DNA of 7,697 nucleotides, taken from CBDUXP01 sp965371225 [NCBI: uncultured bacterium] (GTDB taxonomy: Bacteria; Abyssobacteria; SURF-5; CBDUXP01). The position numbers and the translations under genes are program-made. Location: contig CBDUXP010000108.1 in the NCBI GenBank assembly GCA_965371225.1, positions 1-7,697 of the forward strand, given 5' to 3'. Below the pieces are notes generated by a model that was not told the origin of the DNA, did no database searches, and saw only the letters and a program-made list of their open reading frames with translations. Below, in pieces: positions 255-7,222 of the stretch (position 1 is the first letter of the stretch; every line of letters starts with the position of its first letter).

Positions 255-935
255 CTAGGTCGAAAGCGAATTGTTCAGATTCCACCTGCCATTAGGCCCC
301 TGTTTTCGGCGTGCCAACTGGTAGGATTTAATCGTTCTTCTTAGCGTGGCACCACGAATAGCACTTCCTGCGTATTCTTCTCCCAACTGTGCATCGGACA
401 TAGCTCCTCTATCACGCATGAGCTGCAGAACTTTTATCGTTGCTTCCTTGTACTTTTCAGGTGCACTGGTATTCTGGTCAAAGTCTTCGTTGCATTGCCG
501 AAGCCGCTGAAAATATTCCATCGCCTCAAGATGCTCTGACAACTTCTTATCAAGCACACTCAGCTTCTTGTACCTAATCTGCTGTAACTGTGGGATATCG
601 CTGAGCTGCCATTCGGGTTTCCTCCCCTGCCTGCTTCTCCGCTCATCAAAGGAGATGACCACTTGACGCTGAGATTTGACGGCGAGGGCATAGCCAAGCT
701 CAAGGATGACATTCGGTTTGAATCCACTTACGTCGAAAATGGTCAAAGCACAGTCAGCGATATGCCGCTGGATCTGCTTCCACAGATCTTCTGAACCTCG
801 TCCTTTCTGCCTATCAATCAGTATGACTTCCAAGGGATACTTCTGTTCCCATGTCTTTTTCAGCACGTCAAAGTGATTCTTGATCTTCTTGTTAGAGTAG
901 TTACACCCTAGGAAAATCTTGTTGGCATATAGCAT
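255..935 (-). CDS. TIR-like / nucleoside 2-deoxyribosyltransferase-like fold protein with C-terminal winged-helix-like domain
   Basis: The gene encodes 226 residues, with an ATG at 933-935 preceded by AGGGG six bases upstream, a usable ribosome binding site. Residues 6-95 read as an alternating beta/alpha fold: strand KIFLGC (6-11), strand EVILID (36-41), strand LTIFDVSG (64-71), then PNVILELGYALA (74-85) and strand QVVISF (91-96). The D/S-G...PNV..ELG.A.A signature is typical of nucleoside deoxyribosyltransferase-like and TIR-like proteins, where the conserved Glu (here Glu79) is the catalytic candidate. Such proteins cleave N-glycosidic bonds of nucleotides or NAD+, and many serve in antiphage defence. 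Residues 160-222 (helices around 164-174, 181-188 and 195-207, then a GRWNL strand) look like a winged helix. Base composition is far lower in GC than the neighbours, and the gene lies 23 bases downstream of the methyltransferase on the same strand. The family call is from motif reading alone; no function is shown. Confidence 0.6.
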   Translation of the reverse strand: MLYANKIFLGCNYSNKKIKNHFDVLKKTWEQKYPLEVILIDRQKGRGSEDLWKQIQRHIADCALTIFDVSGFKPNVILELGYALAVKSQRQVVISFDERRSRQGRKPEWQLSDIPQLQQIRYKKLSVLDKKLSEHLEAMEYFQRLRQCNEDFDQNTSAPEKYKEATIKVLQLMRDRGAMSDAQLGEEYAGSAIRGATLRRTIKSYQLARRKQGPNGRWNLNNSLST

Positions 936-1820: not shown

Positions 1821-2909
1821 CTATGCGGCCGTCGCGGCTTTTTCTTTTGCCGGCGCGTTCTGGCTGTCCCAGAAGTGGAGCGGTTCGATCTGGATCAGGT
1901 CGAGCTTGGCGGGCTCGGTGGGGCGGACCATGTCGATGGCGTCGATCTTCGGCGGGCAGGTGTCAACGCACATGCCGCAGCCGATGCAGGCTTCCTCGTC
2001 CACTGTGTGCAGCACCTTCAGTGCGCCGTGGATCGCGTCGACGGGGCACGCCTTCAGGCACGCGAGGCAGCCGGTGCAGTCCTCGTTGATGATGGCCACC
2101 TTGTTGCGCGGCTGCTCGATGATGCAGTTGGTCGGGCACACCTCCACGCACAGGCCGCAGTTGGTGCACTTCTCCTGGTCGATGATCGCCAGGTGATCCT
2201 CAATCCAGATCGCTTCGTACGCGCACACCTTCACGCACGCGTCGCAGTCAACGCAGCCGACCTTGCAGACCTCGGTCGTCGCCTTCCCCTTGTCCAGCGA
2301 GTTGCACAGTACGATGGTGCCCGAATCCTCGGTGAACATCTCGATCAGGTCCACGGGGCACGCGGGGATGCACAGGCTGCAGCCGGTGCACTTGTCGTCG
2401 ATGACCTTCGGGATGCGGCCGTCGTCCCACTCGAACGCGTCGTAGGGGCAGACCTTCACGCACGAACCGAGGCCGATGCAGCCGTACTGGCAGCCCTTGT
2501 TCCCGCCGAACAGCACGTATTGCGCGTTGCAGTCGTTCAGCCCCGCGTAGTCGTAGTTGAACGCGACCACGTCGTCGCCCTCGCCCGTGCACTTGATACG
2601 CACCACGGGGCGCGCCGCGTCCGGGTCCGGCGTGGGCATGCCCAGGTACGCGGCGATCTTGACCGCCACCCGCTGCCCGCCCGGCGGACAACCGTCGGGT
2701 TCCGCCTTGCCGCCCACCAGGCCCGTGGCAAAGCCGCTGCACCCCGGGTAGCCGCACGCGCCGCAGTTGATGTTCGGCAGCATCTCTTCCAGGTCTTCGA
2801 TGCGCGGGTCCACATCCACGGCGAATCGCTGCGAGGCCCAGCTCAGGATGATGCCGATGAGCAGGCCCATGGCGGCGAGCAGGAGGACGGCGTAGACGGC
2901 GGTGAGCAT
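1821..2909 (-). CDS. rnfB: RnfB, multi-cluster iron-sulfur subunit of the Rnf complex
   Basis: Cytoplasmic iron-sulfur subunit that is the likely entry point for electrons from reduced ferredoxin. It has 362 residues. An N-terminal membrane helix (about 3-24) is followed by the RnfB-specific 4Fe-4S domain with Cys49, Cys52, Cys57 and Cys74 (NCGACGYPGC...DGCPPGG). Ferredoxin-like clusters follow: Cys140/144/150/154 in CQYGCIGLGSC..VCP form, then Cys174/177/180/184, Cys219/222/225/229, Cys248/251/254/258, Cys278/281/284/288 and Cys308/311/314/318. Seven 4Fe-4S sites are therefore visible. E. coli RsxB is about 190 residues with three, and Bacteroides/clostridial RnfB proteins typically show about five, so this is a long form. 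Residues 274-326 resemble the C-terminal part of E. coli RsxB (ACPVDAIHGA...LHTV). The ATG at 2907-2909 has AGGAG 12 bases upstream, overlapping the rnfA stop. It is the last gene of the operon. Confidence 0.96.
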   Translation of the reverse strand: MLTAVYAVLLLAAMGLLIGIILSWASQRFAVDVDPRIEDLEEMLPNINCGACGYPGCSGFATGLVGGKAEPDGCPPGGQRVAVKIAAYLGMPTPDPDAARPVVRIKCTGEGDDVVAFNYDYAGLNDCNAQYVLFGGNKGCQYGCIGLGSCVKVCPYDAFEWDDGRIPKVIDDKCTGCSLCIPACPVDLIEMFTEDSGTIVLCNSLDKGKATTEVCKVGCVDCDACVKVCAYEAIWIEDHLAIIDQEKCTNCGLCVEVCPTNCIIEQPRNKVAIINEDCTGCLACLKACPVDAIHGALKVLHTVDEEACIGCGMCVDTCPPKIDAIDMVRPTEPAKLDLIQIEPLHFWDSQNAPAKEKAATAA

Positions 2910-2924
2910 GGGCGGAACCGGCTC

Positions 2925-3512
2925 CTAGAACTTCATCCCGCTGAAGCCCATGAAGCTGACGGCGAGGAGCGCGGCGACCACGAACGCGATGGGCGCGCCG
3001 TCGAACGCCTTGGGCACGCGGGCCAGCTCCAGGCGTTCGCGAATCCCGGCCATGAGCAGGAGCGCGAGCGCGAAGCCGACGGCCGCCGTGAAACTGAACA
3101 ACACGGTGTCGAGGAAGTTCTGGCTTTCCTGCACGTTGAGCACCGCGATACCGAGGATGGCGCAGTTCGTGGTGATCAGCGGCAGGTACACGCCGAGGGC
3201 CGCGTAGATGGGCGGGTACACCTTTTGCAGGAACATCTCGACGAACTGCACGAGCGCGGCGATGACGATGATGAACGCGACCACCTGCATGAAGGGGATG
3301 TGGAAGATGACCAGCGCCTTCTGCACGAAGTACGTGGCGATGCCGGCGAGCGTCATGACGAAGATCACCGCCAGGGACATGCCGACGCTGGATTCGATTT
3401 CCTTCGACACGCCGATGAAGGGGCACAGGCCCAGAAACCGTGCGAGCACGAAGTTGTTGATGAAGATCGCGCCGACGGCGATAGTAAGGATGTGGCTGAT
3501 GTCGAGTTCCAT
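2925..3512 (-). CDS. rnfA: RnfA, integral membrane subunit of the Rnf complex
   Basis: Polytopic inner-membrane subunit, homologous to NqrE, that pairs with RnfE. It has 195 residues, close to the usual 190-195. Family signatures are FINNFVLARFLGLCPFIG (17-34) and LITTNCAILGIAV (112-124). Cys30 and Cys116 lie in the two half-membrane helices that, in the Rnf/Nqr family, supply ligands to a [2Fe-2S] cluster shared between RnfA and RnfE. Six hydrophobic segments are apparent, at about 7-27, 42-62, 70-91, 104-124, 134-155 and 174-193. A GGCGGG-type ribosome binding site lies a few bases upstream of the ATG at 3510-3512. The stop is 15 bases before rnfB, and the start is 9 bases after the rnfE stop, so translational coupling is likely. 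Confidence 0.96.
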   Translation of the reverse strand: MELDISHILTIAVGAIFINNFVLARFLGLCPFIGVSKEIESSVGMSLAVIFVMTLAGIATYFVQKALVIFHIPFMQVVAFIIVIAALVQFVEMFLQKVYPPIYAALGVYLPLITTNCAILGIAVLNVQESQNFLDTVLFSFTAAVGFALALLLMAGIRERLELARVPKAFDGAPIAFVVAALLAVSFMGFSGMKF

Positions 3513-3521
3513 GCCGCCCGC

Positions 3522-4178
3522 CTACGCGTTCCGCCAACGGTTGATGACGTTCATGCCCGCCATGAGCAGCGCGAGCGCCGCGAACCCGCCCGGCGGCAGG
3601 ATCATGACGAGCGACGGCTGAAAGCTCTGGGGCACCACGGGCACGCCGAACAGGGTGCCCATGCCGGTCACCTCGCGCATGGCGCTGAGCACGACGAGCA
3701 CGACCGCGAACCCCAGCCCCATGAACAGCCCGTCCCGCACGCTCATCCAAACCGTGTTGCGCGAGGCGAACGCTTCGGCCCGGCCCAGAATGATGCAGTT
3801 GACGACGATCAGCTTGATGAAGATGCCCAGCGCCGTGTACAGCTCGCGCGAGATCGCCGCGATGGTCTGGTCCGCGACCGTCACAAAGGTAGCGATTACC
3901 ACGATGTAGCACGGAATGCGAATCTGTTTGGGCACCACGCCCTTGATGAGCGACACGACCAGGTTGCTGCCCACGAGCACCCCGAGGGTCGCGACGCCCA
4001 TACTCAGCCCGTTCACAACCGAGTTCGTCACCGCCAGCGTCGGGCACAGGCCCAGCATCAGCACGAGGATCGGGTTGTCCGTCCACGTCCCGCGCGCCAG
4101 GTCTTCCGTCAGGGTCGGCGGGATCTCCACCGCCGCCTCGACCGGGGCCGGTGCTTCGAGCACTGCCGCGTCACTCAT
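3522..4178 (-). CDS. rnfE: RnfE, integral membrane subunit of the Rnf complex
   Basis: Polytopic subunit homologous to NqrD and the inverted-topology partner of RnfA. It has 218 residues. Diagnostic motifs are NPILVLMLGLCPTLAVT (35-51) and LIVVNCIILGRAEAFAS (123-139), with Cys45 and Cys128 as the expected ligands of the membrane [2Fe-2S] cluster. RIPCYIVVIATFVT (87-100) is another family-conserved stretch. The first 20 or so residues (Ala/Pro/Glu rich) precede the usual start of homology and form a small extension. The alternative would be a later start, but no Met lies between residue 1 and the conserved region, and the ATG at 4176-4178 overlaps the rnfG TGA as ATGA, which favours this start. 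The last visible residues (INRWRNA) form a short basic tail. Confidence 0.95.
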   Translation of the reverse strand: MSDAAVLEAPAPVEAAVEIPPTLTEDLARGTWTDNPILVLMLGLCPTLAVTNSVVNGLSMGVATLGVLVGSNLVVSLIKGVVPKQIRIPCYIVVIATFVTVADQTIAAISRELYTALGIFIKLIVVNCIILGRAEAFASRNTVWMSVRDGLFMGLGFAVVLVVLSAMREVTGMGTLFGVPVVPQSFQPSLVMILPPGGFAALALLMAGMNVINRWRNA

Positions 4179-4798
4179 CCTGCGTCGTCCTCCGGTGCCG
4201 CCGCCCCGTCTTGCTCCGCAGCGAGCGCGGCCCGGTAGGCGGCGAATGCTTCTTGCGCGCGTTCGGTGATCGCGCGCGACGTGATGGTCGCGCCCGTGAT
4301 CGCGTCGATCTCGCCGGGCGGCCCGTCGAGGCGCAATTGTACCCGGTCCGGCGTTAACCCCGCGTACTGCGCGCAGAACCAGGGATCGGTCTCGCCGTAG
4401 CGCACTTCGGCGGCGTTCGCCCCGAGGCCGGGCGTCTCCGCGTGTTCCGCCACGCGGATCCCGGACAGGCGTTCCCCATCGGGCGTAACTCCGATGATGA
4501 AGCTGATGTCGCCGCTGTAACCCTGGTGCGTGACCACGGTGAAGACACTTCCCACATACTCATTGTTTCGCCGACCGTCGTAGACCGCAAATTCGCCAAC
4601 TGTTCGCGGGGGGCCAAATTCCACTTCACGCCCAAGTTCCGTGCCTAGCAGGGCGCCACCGCGCAGCCGGGCCTCGTACTCGGCCACCAACCGGGCGATG
4701 CGCTCCCTCGTCAGCAGGTTGGTAAATCCCAACAGGCTGGCCGACACGAGGCACACGGCTAGCACGGCGCCGGTGAGCTGCAGGTAGACCTTGTTCAT
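4175..4798 (-). CDS. rnfG: RnfG, covalently flavinylated subunit of the Rnf complex
   Basis: Membrane-anchored, mostly extracytoplasmic subunit with an FMN-binding domain homologous to NqrC. It has 207 residues: an N-terminal membrane helix (about 7-27), the HAETPGLG motif (119-126), and the flavinylation motif D-A-I-T-G-A-T (165-171), in which Thr171 is expected to be esterified to FMN by the transferase ApbE. No apbE gene is visible in this window. The open frame runs further upstream, but that extension lies inside rnfD, and the ATG at 4796-4798 overlaps the rnfD TGA as ATGA and is followed by the normal helix. The gene ends in an Ala/Glu/Asp tail (193-207), and its stop overlaps the rnfE start. 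Confidence 0.95.
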   Translation of the reverse strand: MNKVYLQLTGAVLAVCLVSASLLGFTNLLTRERIARLVAEYEARLRGGALLGTELGREVEFGPPRTVGEFAVYDGRRNNEYVGSVFTVVTHQGYSGDISFIIGVTPDGERLSGIRVAEHAETPGLGANAAEVRYGETDPWFCAQYAGLTPDRVQLRLDGPPGEIDAITGATITSRAITERAQEAFAAYRAALAAEQDGAAAPEDDAG

Positions 4799-5841
4799 GC
4801 CGCCGGCCCCGCCGCGTCCTGGCCGAAGATGCGGGGTACCGTGAACCGGTCGATGAGCGGCGTCGCGGCGTTCATGAGCAGGATGCCGTAGGACGCGCCT
4901 TCCGCCGGCCCACCCTTCCACCGAATCAGCCACGTGAAGAAGCCGCACCCGATGCCGAAGATGACCTGCCCGCGCACGGTCATGGGGCAGGTCACCATGT
5001 CGGTGGACATGAAGAACGCGCCGAGGATGAGCCCGCCGGCGAGTACGTGGTACAGCCACTCACCGGTGAGCAGCCCCTCGGTCCCGCTGAACGCCCACGT
5101 GAACAGCGCGGTGGACACGATGTAGCTCGCCGGGTTCTGCCAGTACACGTGGCCGCGATAGATAAGGTAGAGCCCGCCGACGAGGAGGGCGATAACCGAC
5201 GTTTCCCCGATGCACCCGCCGTGGCCGCCGAGGAAGAGGTCCAGATACGTGACCGGGTCGGGCGCCTGGCCGCCCTTGATCAGCGGCGTGGCGGAGCTGA
5301 TGGCGTCGTGGGCCGTGCCCAGCCGGTCGGCCACGTTCAGCGAGAAGAACGAGTACCCGTCCTCGCGCCACCAGAACGGCGTCAGCCACCCCTTCGTCAT
5401 CGCCACGGGCCAGGCGGCAAGCAACGTCGCGCGCCCGATCAGGGCGGGATTGAAGATGTTGTAGCCCAGGCCGCCGAACAGCATCTTGGCCGCGACGATG
5501 GCGATGATGCTGCCCGCCGCCGCGAGCCATAGCGGCGAGCCGGGCGGAATATTCATAGCGAGCAACACGCCGGTCACGGCGGCGCTGCCGTCCGCGATGC
5601 GGATGGGGACCTTCATGATGCGCTGGCAGGCCGCTTCGGACCCCATCGCGGCCGCGACGGCCACGGCCACTACGAGCACCGGCCGGAAGCCAAAGTAGTA
5701 CACCGTCACGAGCATGGTCGGGACGAGCGCCACCAGCACGTCGACCATGACCCCTTGAATGGTCAGGCCCTGGTCCTCGATGTGCGGCGACGCGGTGACC
5801 ACCAGCGTCCGCGGCGCGGGCGGGGTCTTCAGCTTAGCCAT
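4795..5841 (-). CDS. rnfD: RnfD, integral membrane flavoprotein subunit of the Rnf complex
   Basis: Polytopic inner-membrane subunit homologous to NqrB that takes part in ion translocation and carries covalent FMN. It has 348 residues. Family motifs are VTGVLLAMNIPPGSPLW (89-105), KMLFGGLGYNIFNPALIGRA (119-138), FFMSTDMVTCPMT (276-288) and the C-terminal YGILLMNAATPLID (318-331). The flavin-attachment candidate is D-A-I-S-S-A-T (179-185), with Thr185 as acceptor; the usual Gly of the S/T-G-A-T motif is Ser here. The ATG at 5839-5841 was chosen because the homologous sequence begins just after it, an AGG lies four bases upstream within the rnfC stop region, and the frame open farther upstream lies inside rnfC. 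The distance from the rnfC stop is 4 bases, so coupling is likely. Confidence 0.95.
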   Translation of the reverse strand: MAKLKTPPAPRTLVVTASPHIEDQGLTIQGVMVDVLVALVPTMLVTVYYFGFRPVLVVAVAVAAAMGSEAACQRIMKVPIRIADGSAAVTGVLLAMNIPPGSPLWLAAAGSIIAIVAAKMLFGGLGYNIFNPALIGRATLLAAWPVAMTKGWLTPFWWREDGYSFFSLNVADRLGTAHDAISSATPLIKGGQAPDPVTYLDLFLGGHGGCIGETSVIALLVGGLYLIYRGHVYWQNPASYIVSTALFTWAFSGTEGLLTGEWLYHVLAGGLILGAFFMSTDMVTCPMTVRGQVIFGIGCGFFTWLIRWKGGPAEGASYGILLMNAATPLIDRFTVPRIFGQDAAGPAA

Positions 5842-5845
5842 CGAC

Positions 5846-7222
5846 CTAGTGGGCCTCGCGCGCGGCGGCGCGGCGCAACTCCTGCTTGCCGTACTTGAAC
5901 ATGTGCACCATGGGCCGTTTGCTGGGGCACACGTACACGCACGCGCCGCACTCGAAGCAGTCCAAGAGCCCCAGGTTTTTAGCCGCGTCGAACTTCTCGC
6001 CTTCGCAGAGAATGCCCAAGTCCGCCGGCAACAGTTGCATGGGGCAGACATCCACGCAGCGGCCGCAGCGAATGCACGCCTCGTAATCTTCGGACGTGGC
6101 GTCCTCTGTGCGCAAAACGAGGATGCCGCTGGTGCCTTTGAGCACGGGCACGTCAGTGGTGAACTGCGCCGGCCCCATCATGGGCCCGCCGCCGACGACT
6201 TTGTATGGCACGCCCTCGTACCCGCCCGCCTGCTGGATGCAGTAGTCGTAGGTCGCGCCGACGCGGACGCGCATGTTCTGCGGCGCCTTGACGCCCGGGC
6301 CGGTGACGGTGACCACACGCTCGATGCACGGGCGCCCGTGATAGAGCGCGTCGTGAACAGCCACCGCGGTCTGCACGTTGCTGCACACCACGCCGATGTC
6401 CAGCGGCAGGCCCCCGTTCGGCACCTCGCGCCCGCTGATCGCCTTGATAAGCTGCTTCTCCGCCCCTTGCGGGTACATGACGCGGAAGGCTTGCACGCCG
6501 ATCGCGCCGTCCCCGTTCAACGACGCGCGCAACGCGTCCACCGCCTCCTGCTTGTTGTCCTCCGTGCCGATGACCGCCTTCGTCGCGCCGACGGTGCGCA
6601 TGAGCAGGCGCAGCCCGCTGACGATCTCGGGCGCCTTGTCGCGCATGAGCACGTCGTCGCACGTGAGGTACGGCTCGCACTCGGCGCCGTTCAGGACGTA
6701 GAACTCGATGCGGGTGCCTTCCTTCGGCGCCAGCTTCACGTGGGTCGGAAACGCGGCGCCGCCCATGCCTACGATGCCGGCCTCATGAATGATGCGGCGC
6801 AATTCCTCCGGCGACAGCGCCGCCACTTCCTCCGGCGTCCGCGGCATGCACTCCACCCACGTGTCCTCCCCGTCGGACTCGATGAATACCGCCTCCATGG
6901 CGCGGCCCTGCGGATGCGCTGCGAGGCGGACGTCCTTCACCTTGCCGCTGATGGAGGCGTGCACCGGCGCGGAAACGAACCCGCCGCTCTCGGCGATGAC
7001 CTGCCCCGCCCGGACCGCGTCCCCCTTCTGGACCAGCAGCTTGGCCGGCGCGCCGATGTGCTGGCGAGTGGGGACGATCACCCGCTCGGGCAGCGGCGGC
7101 TCCAGAATCGGGCGGCTCGTGGACTCCCCCTTGTGCTCGGCCGGGTGGATGCCACCCTGGAAGTTCTTGCCCGTTAAGGCTTTACGGAGCCGGTCGCGGA
7201 TCTGGATGCTGAGCGGGGGCAT
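5846..7222 (-). CDS. rnfC: RnfC, NADH- and FMN-binding iron-sulfur subunit of the Rnf complex
   Basis: Peripheral cytoplasmic subunit that reacts with NAD+/NADH and is homologous to NqrF/Nuo51-type modules. It has 458 residues. The N-terminal barrel-sandwich domain contains FQGGIHP (21-27) and LPERVIVPTRQHIGAP (44-59). The glycine-rich GMGGAAFPTHVKL (152-164) and NGAECEPYLTCDD (178-190) form the FMN/NADH site. SLBB-like sequence follows (about 300-360). Two 4Fe-4S clusters close the protein: Cys383/386/389/393 (CIRCGRCVDVCP) and Cys422/425/428/432 (CFECGACVYVCP). The length fits the compact RnfC form, without the long Ala/Lys-rich tail of E. coli RsxC. An in-frame TAG lies six codons upstream of the ATG at 7220-7222, so the start cannot be moved far; no Shine-Dalgarno is evident. 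It is the first gene of the operon, with a promoter candidate about 130 bases upstream. Confidence 0.97.
   Translation of the reverse strand: MPPLSIQIRDRLRKALTGKNFQGGIHPAEHKGESTSRPILEPPLPERVIVPTRQHIGAPAKLLVQKGDAVRAGQVIAESGGFVSAPVHASISGKVKDVRLAAHPQGRAMEAVFIESDGEDTWVECMPRTPEEVAALSPEELRRIIHEAGIVGMGGAAFPTHVKLAPKEGTRIEFYVLNGAECEPYLTCDDVLMRDKAPEIVSGLRLLMRTVGATKAVIGTEDNKQEAVDALRASLNGDGAIGVQAFRVMYPQGAEKQLIKAISGREVPNGGLPLDIGVVCSNVQTAVAVHDALYHGRPCIERVVTVTGPGVKAPQNMRVRVGATYDYCIQQAGGYEGVPYKVVGGGPMMGPAQFTTDVPVLKGTSGILVLRTEDATSEDYEACIRCGRCVDVCPMQLLPADLGILCEGEKFDAAKNLGLLDCFECGACVYVCPSKRPMVHMFKYGKQELRRAAAREAH

Follow-up and report, generated by a model that had tools for sequence, protein, structure and literature searches.

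The present analysis describes a small and scattered family of proteins that are probably one-gene NADases of abortive infection, a prediction built around a single gene located at 255-935 on the minus strand of the window, i.e., the entire 7,697-nucleotide stretch of DNA under study. We give about even chances to the complete reading, in which this is a horizontally acquired single gene for a two-part antiphage protein composed of a TIR-like NADase, a stalk, and a winged sensor that together would trigger abortive infection. The core fold, the correspondence of its Glu, Asn, and Asp residues, the foreign composition of the gene, the scattered relatives, and the location of one relative within a TIR-caspase cluster were all computed; NADase activity, clustering, an infection cue, and abortive infection are inferred. 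In the proposed mechanism, the TIR-like domain would cleave NAD+ when clustered, with E79 as the catalytic residue and N75 in the pocket; D113 would perhaps reach across the dimer, like D110 in TIR-STING. Helix 125-155 would serve as the stalk, and the faster-diverging winged-helix tail would recognize some infection cue, for which a phage protein assembly is a better candidate than host DNA. Presumably, binding of this cue would cluster the TIR cores, deplete NAD+, and ultimately result in abortive infection. The initial annotation had proposed a system of this kind, and it was right in kind: core, tail, and acquisition are supported, the antiphage role in part.

The features of the gene are as follows, all on the minus strand:

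255-935: TIR-like, winged-tail ORF of 226 aa plus stop, set apart by composition
940-946: SD-like AGGGGTG, 4 nt upstream of the ATG, read from the sequence
570-935: NDT/TIR-like Rossmann core, residues 1-122, from the AlphaFold2 model and fold and profile matches
711-713: codon of N75, the counterpart by alignment of N80 in the TIR-STING pocket
699-701: codon of E79, the putative catalytic Glu, which lines up with that of Cap12, PycTIR, and Rcl and is present in 7/7 of the close family
597-599: codon of D113, aligned with TIR-STING D110 and an Rcl Asp, in a lower-confidence stretch of the model
471-563: long helix, residues 125-155, of the model; proposed stalk, a role inferred from Swarozyc
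276-461: winged-helix-like tail, residues 159-220, of the model, with weak HTH matches in three relatives; proposed sensor

Composition of the gene and its relatives

The gene is intact, with an ATG start, and it is the last of a series on the minus strand that runs from rnfC-D-G-E-A-B (7222 down to 1821; gene names from reading the translations) through a class I SAM methyltransferase gene (1759-959), which adjoins it. The plus strand at 1-177 carries the end of another gene, for which a Pfam scan returned no match. A perfect inverted repeat, GGCGGGTCTTTAGACCCGCC, is found at 1770-1789 between the methyltransferase gene and rnfB. The rnf genes (1821-7222) belong to a high-GC lineage; in 424 genome searches, a few genomes being counted twice, the best near-full-length identity to the RnfC of the window was 54%, with 56% over part of its length. 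Against this background, the composition of the gene is striking: its GC of 0.471 and GC3 of 0.551 compare with 0.62-0.69 and 0.90-0.93 in six minus-strand neighbors (the methyltransferase gene and rnfB, A, E, D, and C). The initial annotation had described a gene strikingly below its flanks in GC, and the block counts that it gave are exact (26 at 421-480, 23 at 841-900, and 48 at 1321-1380). Segments of 681 bases that begin beyond position 960, 6,057 in number, have a mean GC of 0.670 (sd 0.019) and never fall below 0.626, and therefore the dip at 255-935 is not ordinary variation along the sequence. We also considered the methyltransferase as part of the proposed system and rejected this, its GC3 of 0.90 being like that of its neighbors and its PADLOC match to mad2 covering a generic methyltransferase domain.

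Full-length relatives of the window protein number six. Two, both from Syntrophaceae MAGs, are broken (L009 and L010) and match the window protein along its whole length, while four are intact, with lengths of 218-228 aa: L091 from the phylum of a Planctomycetaceae MAG, L092 from that of a Lentisphaerae MAG, and L093 and L094 from that of an Acidobacteriia MAG. L009 (about 7902-8683) and L010 (about 7962-8671) are interrupted by frameshifts that differ in position, and L009 has a stop in addition. A programmed frameshift was rejected, since the break sites differ and L009 also has the stop. Purifying selection is evident between L009 and L010 (dN/dS of about 0.06 for the core piece and 0.2 for the C-terminal piece) and between L092 and L094 (pN 0.20 against a saturated pS of 0.93). 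In all seven close-family genes the GC is lower than in the surrounding stretch: 0.47 vs 0.67 in the window, 0.37 vs 0.49 in L009, 0.36 vs 0.40 in L010, 0.54 vs 0.65 in L091, 0.51 vs 0.56 in L092, 0.50 vs 0.675 in L093, and 0.43 vs 0.65 in L094, the gap being only 4-5 points for L010 and L092. The GC and GC3 step, the scattered relatives, and this shared trend all support the claim of acquisition made earlier from the sequence, and the gene was probably picked up from another bacterium.

The family, which comprises seven proteins here, is rare and scattered. A pattern-plus-tblastn scan of 84,980 species' genomes yielded 561 pattern stretches, 41 of which encode relatives, and when the ORFs were read at 43 loci (these 41 plus two viral ones), 21 proved to be of a 388-aa effector type. 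A profile made from the window protein plus the L009 and L010 pieces (A4) was searched against 155 genomes of one class, where its 2 matches had been known beforehand, and against genomes sampled from four phyla, where it matched 3/246, 2/240, 2/247, and 4/245; four of these 11 phylum matches are the new proteins L091-L094 and the other seven are core-only. The matches span model positions 6-195 (of 227) in L091, 19-146 in L092, 4-206 in L093, and 19-158 in L094, such that the tails of L092 and L094, which lie outside the profile match, were placed by length and weak HTH matches. A further profile, A5, matched 3 of 93 genomes in the class of L094, namely the L094 protein itself, a protein of ~800 aa, and a distant one of 248 aa. 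When the window protein was searched through the phylum of G001, 7 of 297 genomes matched, with a full-length protein in G001 only. Three loci were left out of the full-length set: L013, a longer protein in another setting that matches over 35-226 at 27%, and L015 and L029, whose 257-315 aa proteins have their own C-terminal domain. At L013 (139-2247, plus strand), the 266-aa TIR-like protein has a different C-terminal domain, and its gene precedes two more ORFs on that strand, a short one containing a membrane-like stretch and one that is nucleotidyltransferase-like, an arrangement that appears CBASS-like by eye. Judging by translations, the core is also found fused to TPR-like, LamG-like, or phosphoribosyltransferase-like parts at L018, L019, L024, L025, L026, L031, L032, and L033, in bacteria as well as a Methanophagales archaeon, and fusions to other helical repeats occur among the 43 loci too.

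Among mobile elements, the window protein has no close relative in plasmids at E<=1e-3, in phages at E<=1e-2, or in viral contigs, where none of 19 pattern stretches encodes a relative. At E<=10, 7 plasmid and 10 phage records appear, every one under 60% identity. Four of the five plasmid matches examined are of the 388-aa effector type; two of these four are near an annotated CBASS oligonucleotide cyclase and a third is near a nucleotidyltransferase. An A1 scan of the viral contigs gave 97 stretches with 3 relatives and an A6 scan gave 215 pattern stretches with none, while the L094 protein has no relative in plasmids or phages at E<=1e-3.

The core domain and its putative active site

An AlphaFold2 model built from a 29-row alignment, A2 (mean pLDDT 83.5, pTM 0.75), shows an alpha/beta core (up to residue 122) followed by a helix at 125-155 and by three helices and two strands to residue 220; confidence is lower over 101-120, where D113 lies, with block means of 59 and 76. 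That the core is TIR/NDT-like and Rossmann-like, E79 occupying the position of the catalytic Glu, had been predicted from the outset, and this is supported by the model together with the fold and profile matches. In the modelled Rossmann-like fold, E79 opens the alpha-helix 74-85, residues 74-85 of the window protein reading PNVILELGYALA, with E79 as the Glu within it.

In Foldseek and VIA-align comparisons, the top matches of the core are nucleotide glycosidases, with residues 2-140 matching DNPH1 (Z up to 15.7), MilB, BcmB, and deoxyribosyltransferase, and the core compares with TIR domains at similar Z values (SPARTA TIR-APAZ 14.5, IL-1RAcPb 13.6). Profile searches against TIR and NDT families had been suggested as a check. 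The only Pfam match is the CAP12-PCTIR TIR family (PF10137, E=0.0063), at 17 bits vs a curated cutoff of 24.7, whereas Nuc_deoxyrib_tr (PF05014) matches neither the window protein (E<=1) nor any of its four intact relatives (E<=0.05). PF10137 is matched by four of these five proteins, with L092 (26.2) and L094 (25.9) passing the cutoff and L091 (18.1) below it, while L093 has no match at E<=0.05. The best PADLOC match of the window protein is a CBASS TIR effector model, PDLC00733 (E=2.9e-7, residues 16-89), followed by a weak one to Csn2 (0.017); PHROGs returned an unannotated family (1.8e-4) and NCBIfam nothing relevant (CydD at 0.056). The A2 profile gave weak matches to Rcl/DNPH1 (E 0.0013), CD-NTase-associated protein 12 (E 0.0017), and PycTIR (E 0.0036), and Pfam matches over the 29 A2 rows were 10 for Nuc_deoxyrib_tr, 6 for CAP12-TIR, and 3 for TIR_2. 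A BFVD structure search produced 7 matches at E<=0.001, the best being a CAP12/Pycsar-type TIR protein of Terrestrivirus.

The profile alignments of A2 place E79 with the Glu of Rcl, Cap12, and PycTIR. When the Glu of Cap12 is counted as E84, that alignment further places N75 at N80 and D113 at D110 of TIR-STING. According to the available parts of PMC9402430, E84 of TIR-STING is catalytic and N80 lines the NAD pocket, while D110, contributed by the dimer mate, completes the site, such that D110A abolishes activity. Each of F8, Ile55, N75, E79, and D113 is present in 7/7 proteins of the close family, and F8 and D113 are each present in 27/27 of the A2 rows covering them. The fetching patterns fixed P74, N75, E79, L80, and G81, so that their invariance in A2 follows from the search itself; the patterns did not include F8, Ile55, or D113, and L091-L094 were retrieved with profiles. 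The column of D113 is also Asp in the Rcl alignment, and because of this D113 alone cannot separate an NADase from a glycosidase.

Alternatively, the protein could be an enzyme of the DNPH1/NDT kind, a nucleotide N-glycosidase or deoxyribosyltransferase, that carries an extra tail and serves in salvage, in nucleotide clean-up, or in an attack on phage nucleotides. The leading fold matches (DNPH1, MilB, BcmB, and NDT) would favor such an enzyme, as would the rank of Rcl as best A2 profile match and the Nuc_deoxyrib_tr matches in 10 of 29 A2 rows. The second catalytic residue of DNPH1/Rcl and NDT, an Asp (D80 in human and D69 in rat DNPH1), aligns, however, with Ile55, 24 residues before E79, and this position is Ile in 7/7 close relatives; the window protein and its four intact relatives also share the lack of a Nuc_deoxyrib_tr match noted above. 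We consider this explanation unlikely. A TIR-like NADase is favored because the close family gives CAP12-TIR but no Nuc_deoxyrib_tr matches and because Ile55 stands in for the catalytic Asp of DNPH1 and NDT. Judging by these residues and profiles, NAD cleavage is likelier than nucleotide salvage, although the fold alone does not decide. The Asp of the Rcl alignment and the Nuc_deoxyrib_tr matches within A2 are the reasons why the one-gene NADase defense reading is held less firmly.

The tail and the gene neighborhoods

The initial annotation had also proposed a winged-helix tail. The AlphaFold2 model supports this with three helices and two strands over residues 159-220 (pLDDT of about 87-92 as far as residue 210, falling to 77 and 60 beyond it), while sequence support is weaker, consisting of sub-threshold HTH matches in three relatives (HTH_24 in L092, HVO_A0114 in L094, and RecX_HTH1 in L093). 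The winged-helix fold of the tail is predicted from this one model. Modelled alone, the tail came out poorly (pLDDT 59.8), and Foldseek matches to this poor model are mostly winged-helix regulators, all at E above 1; the VIA-align list was filled by residues 2-140 and is silent on the tail. Conservation drops from core to tail in each of the seven pairs examined, e.g., from 82% to 54% for L092/L094, 55% vs 24% for the window protein and L009, and 80% vs 69% for L009/L010. Between the two subgroups, no homology of the tails was detected by hhalign (probability 0.1, compared with 98.7 for the cores), a weak negative given the few sequences. Net charge over the last 36 residues is +8 in the window protein and 0 to +3 in its six relatives, and the basic tail of the window protein may bind nucleic acid.

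These properties bear upon the possibility of a transcription regulator, in which the NDT/TIR-like domain would bind a nucleotide or NAD metabolite and thereby control a DNA-binding winged helix. The modelled tail, its Foldseek matches to regulators (E above 1, from the poor model), the +8 charge, and the place of the L094 relative as first gene of a run would all fit such a protein. Nevertheless, a Glu, Asn, and Asp of catalytic type in 7/7 proteins are unexpected for a pure binder, the charge is not shared by the six relatives, and the cores of the subgroups are homologous while their tails lack detectable homology (few sequences; a weak negative). Such divergence of the tail is easier to reconcile with a changing sensor than with a regulator that binds fixed DNA sites, and we regard a regulator as improbable.

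In the gene neighborhoods, the antiphage role put forward initially finds partial support at two relatives and none at the window itself. Among the window ORFs, of which the methyltransferase alone was scanned by PADLOC, no defense or mobility gene was recognized, nor was a caspase-like gene seen on reading the ORFs, as the type IV Thoeris layout would require. Among the scanned neighbors of the window gene, L009, and L010 (10 proteins by PADLOC and 10 by Pfam), no complete defense system was recognized. The gene immediately preceding L009, with the same orientation, encodes a nucleotide cyclase with a CHASE2 domain (5700-7841, plus strand), which matches Pycsar cyclase models over its cyclase domain (PADLOC, E 3.4e-32); we read it as a generic receptor cyclase, and a Pycsar-like pairing may exist. 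The vicinity of L010 includes a metallo-beta-lactamase-fold protein (PADLOC matches at E 6.7e-7 and weaker) among genes that otherwise look ordinary. On the contigs of L092 and L093 (4.6 and 5.8 kb), nothing defense-like was recognized, one L092 neighbor having been scanned. Behind L091, in the same orientation, come first a DUF5677 gene and then one for an OLD/GajA-like ATPase, each of the three genes having a GC of 0.53-0.55 inside 0.65. L094 leads three same-strand genes (7284-9420, minus strand; GC 0.43-0.50 inside 0.65) separated by gaps of about 34 and 9 bases by longest ORFs, the other two encoding a ThsB-type TIR (PF08937, 35.2 bits vs a cutoff of 21.2) and a caspase-like protease (PF00656 Peptidase_C14, 54.4 vs 21.4). 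Defense-like neighbors are thereby found for two of the six full-length relatives, L091 and L094, a raw, uncontrolled rate; the other four have no recognized defense neighbor in the available sequence, which for two of them is the 4.6- and 5.8-kb contigs. The relatives are consequently not all in housekeeping surroundings.

A TIR paired with a caspase-like protease is type IV Thoeris, as given in the available parts of PMC12847820. From the domains encoded, the L094 run is possibly a three-gene form of it. This also brings into consideration a signal maker of the Thoeris type, whose TIR-like domain would, upon infection, not itself deplete NAD+ but supply another effector with a messenger of the cyclic ADP-ribose type. 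The low-GC run led by L094, with the type IV layout just cited, would be in keeping with such a role. Yet that run already has a ThsB-type TIR of its own, and no effector was recognized beside the window gene or the five other relatives; we assign this explanation a small probability. Returning to the sensor-linked NADase, a more specific and rather doubtful version would see here an unnamed family of ~220-230 aa in which a CAP12-type TIR-like NADase is joined through a stalk to a fast-changing winged sensor, the Swarozyc plan thus being reached outside DUF4062, and which sometimes supplies a third component to a type IV Thoeris-like TIR-caspase pair. If true, the combination of compact TIR-like enzyme and winged sensor would have arisen more than once and spread as a single gene among distant phyla, phage sensing by small TIR proteins would be directly testable in a protein of 226 aa, and TIR-caspase systems might have a third gene, as suggested by the L094 run.

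Comparison with known systems

The open-access literature on TIR plus winged-helix proteins, to the extent available, yielded no description of this family, and the available parts of PMC13142454 make no mention of winged or helix-turn-helix domains. The 388-aa CBASS effector, whose model (PDLC00733) is the best defense-model match of the window protein, differs in that its TIR is C-terminal, behind about 240 other residues, and it sits in a multi-gene run with an annotated CBASS oligonucleotide cyclase in L001 and L003. With DNPH1/Rcl, MilB, BcmB, and NDT, the window protein shares the core fold (Z of about 14 to 15.7) and a Glu at the same place; unlike them, it has Ile55 for the catalytic Asp as well as the stalk and winged tail. 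The TIR effectors of TIR-STING, CAP12, and Pycsar systems (PF10137) have their NADase-site Glu, Asn, and Asp in register with those of the window protein, and two of its relatives pass the family cutoff. In contrast to these effectors, the window protein itself falls below that cutoff and has no recognized STING or other cyclic-nucleotide-sensing domain, and unlike for CAP12 and Pycsar effectors, the window has no CBASS or Pycsar operon.

Two of the systems compared consist of one gene, and of these Swarozyc is the closest analogue that has been worked out. SpbK, a Bacillus TIR, is described in the available parts of PMC12847820 as a one-gene NADase whose sensing domain clusters TIR on the phage portal. 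Compared by this partial description, SpbK resembles what is proposed here in being a one-gene TIR with a sensing domain, but that domain is N-terminal in SpbK. Swarozyc, as far as the available parts of PMC13174449 describe it, belongs to the TIR-like NADases of the DUF4062 family; it has helical stalks, and its auxiliary HTH/winged domain, a tail, binds the phage portal rather than DNA, leading to NAD+ loss. Unlike Swarozyc, the window protein (E<=1), the 29 A2 rows (E<=0.01), and the four intact relatives (E<=0.05) have no match to DUF4062 (PF13271), a model that itself finds proteins in 3/5 of the relatives' genomes and 3/14 control genomes. When the secondary structure of our model is set against this partial published description, both proteins nonetheless have a TIR/NDT-like core with one conserved Glu, a stalk, and a C-terminal HTH/winged domain in the same order, and both are single genes with a patchy, mobile distribution.
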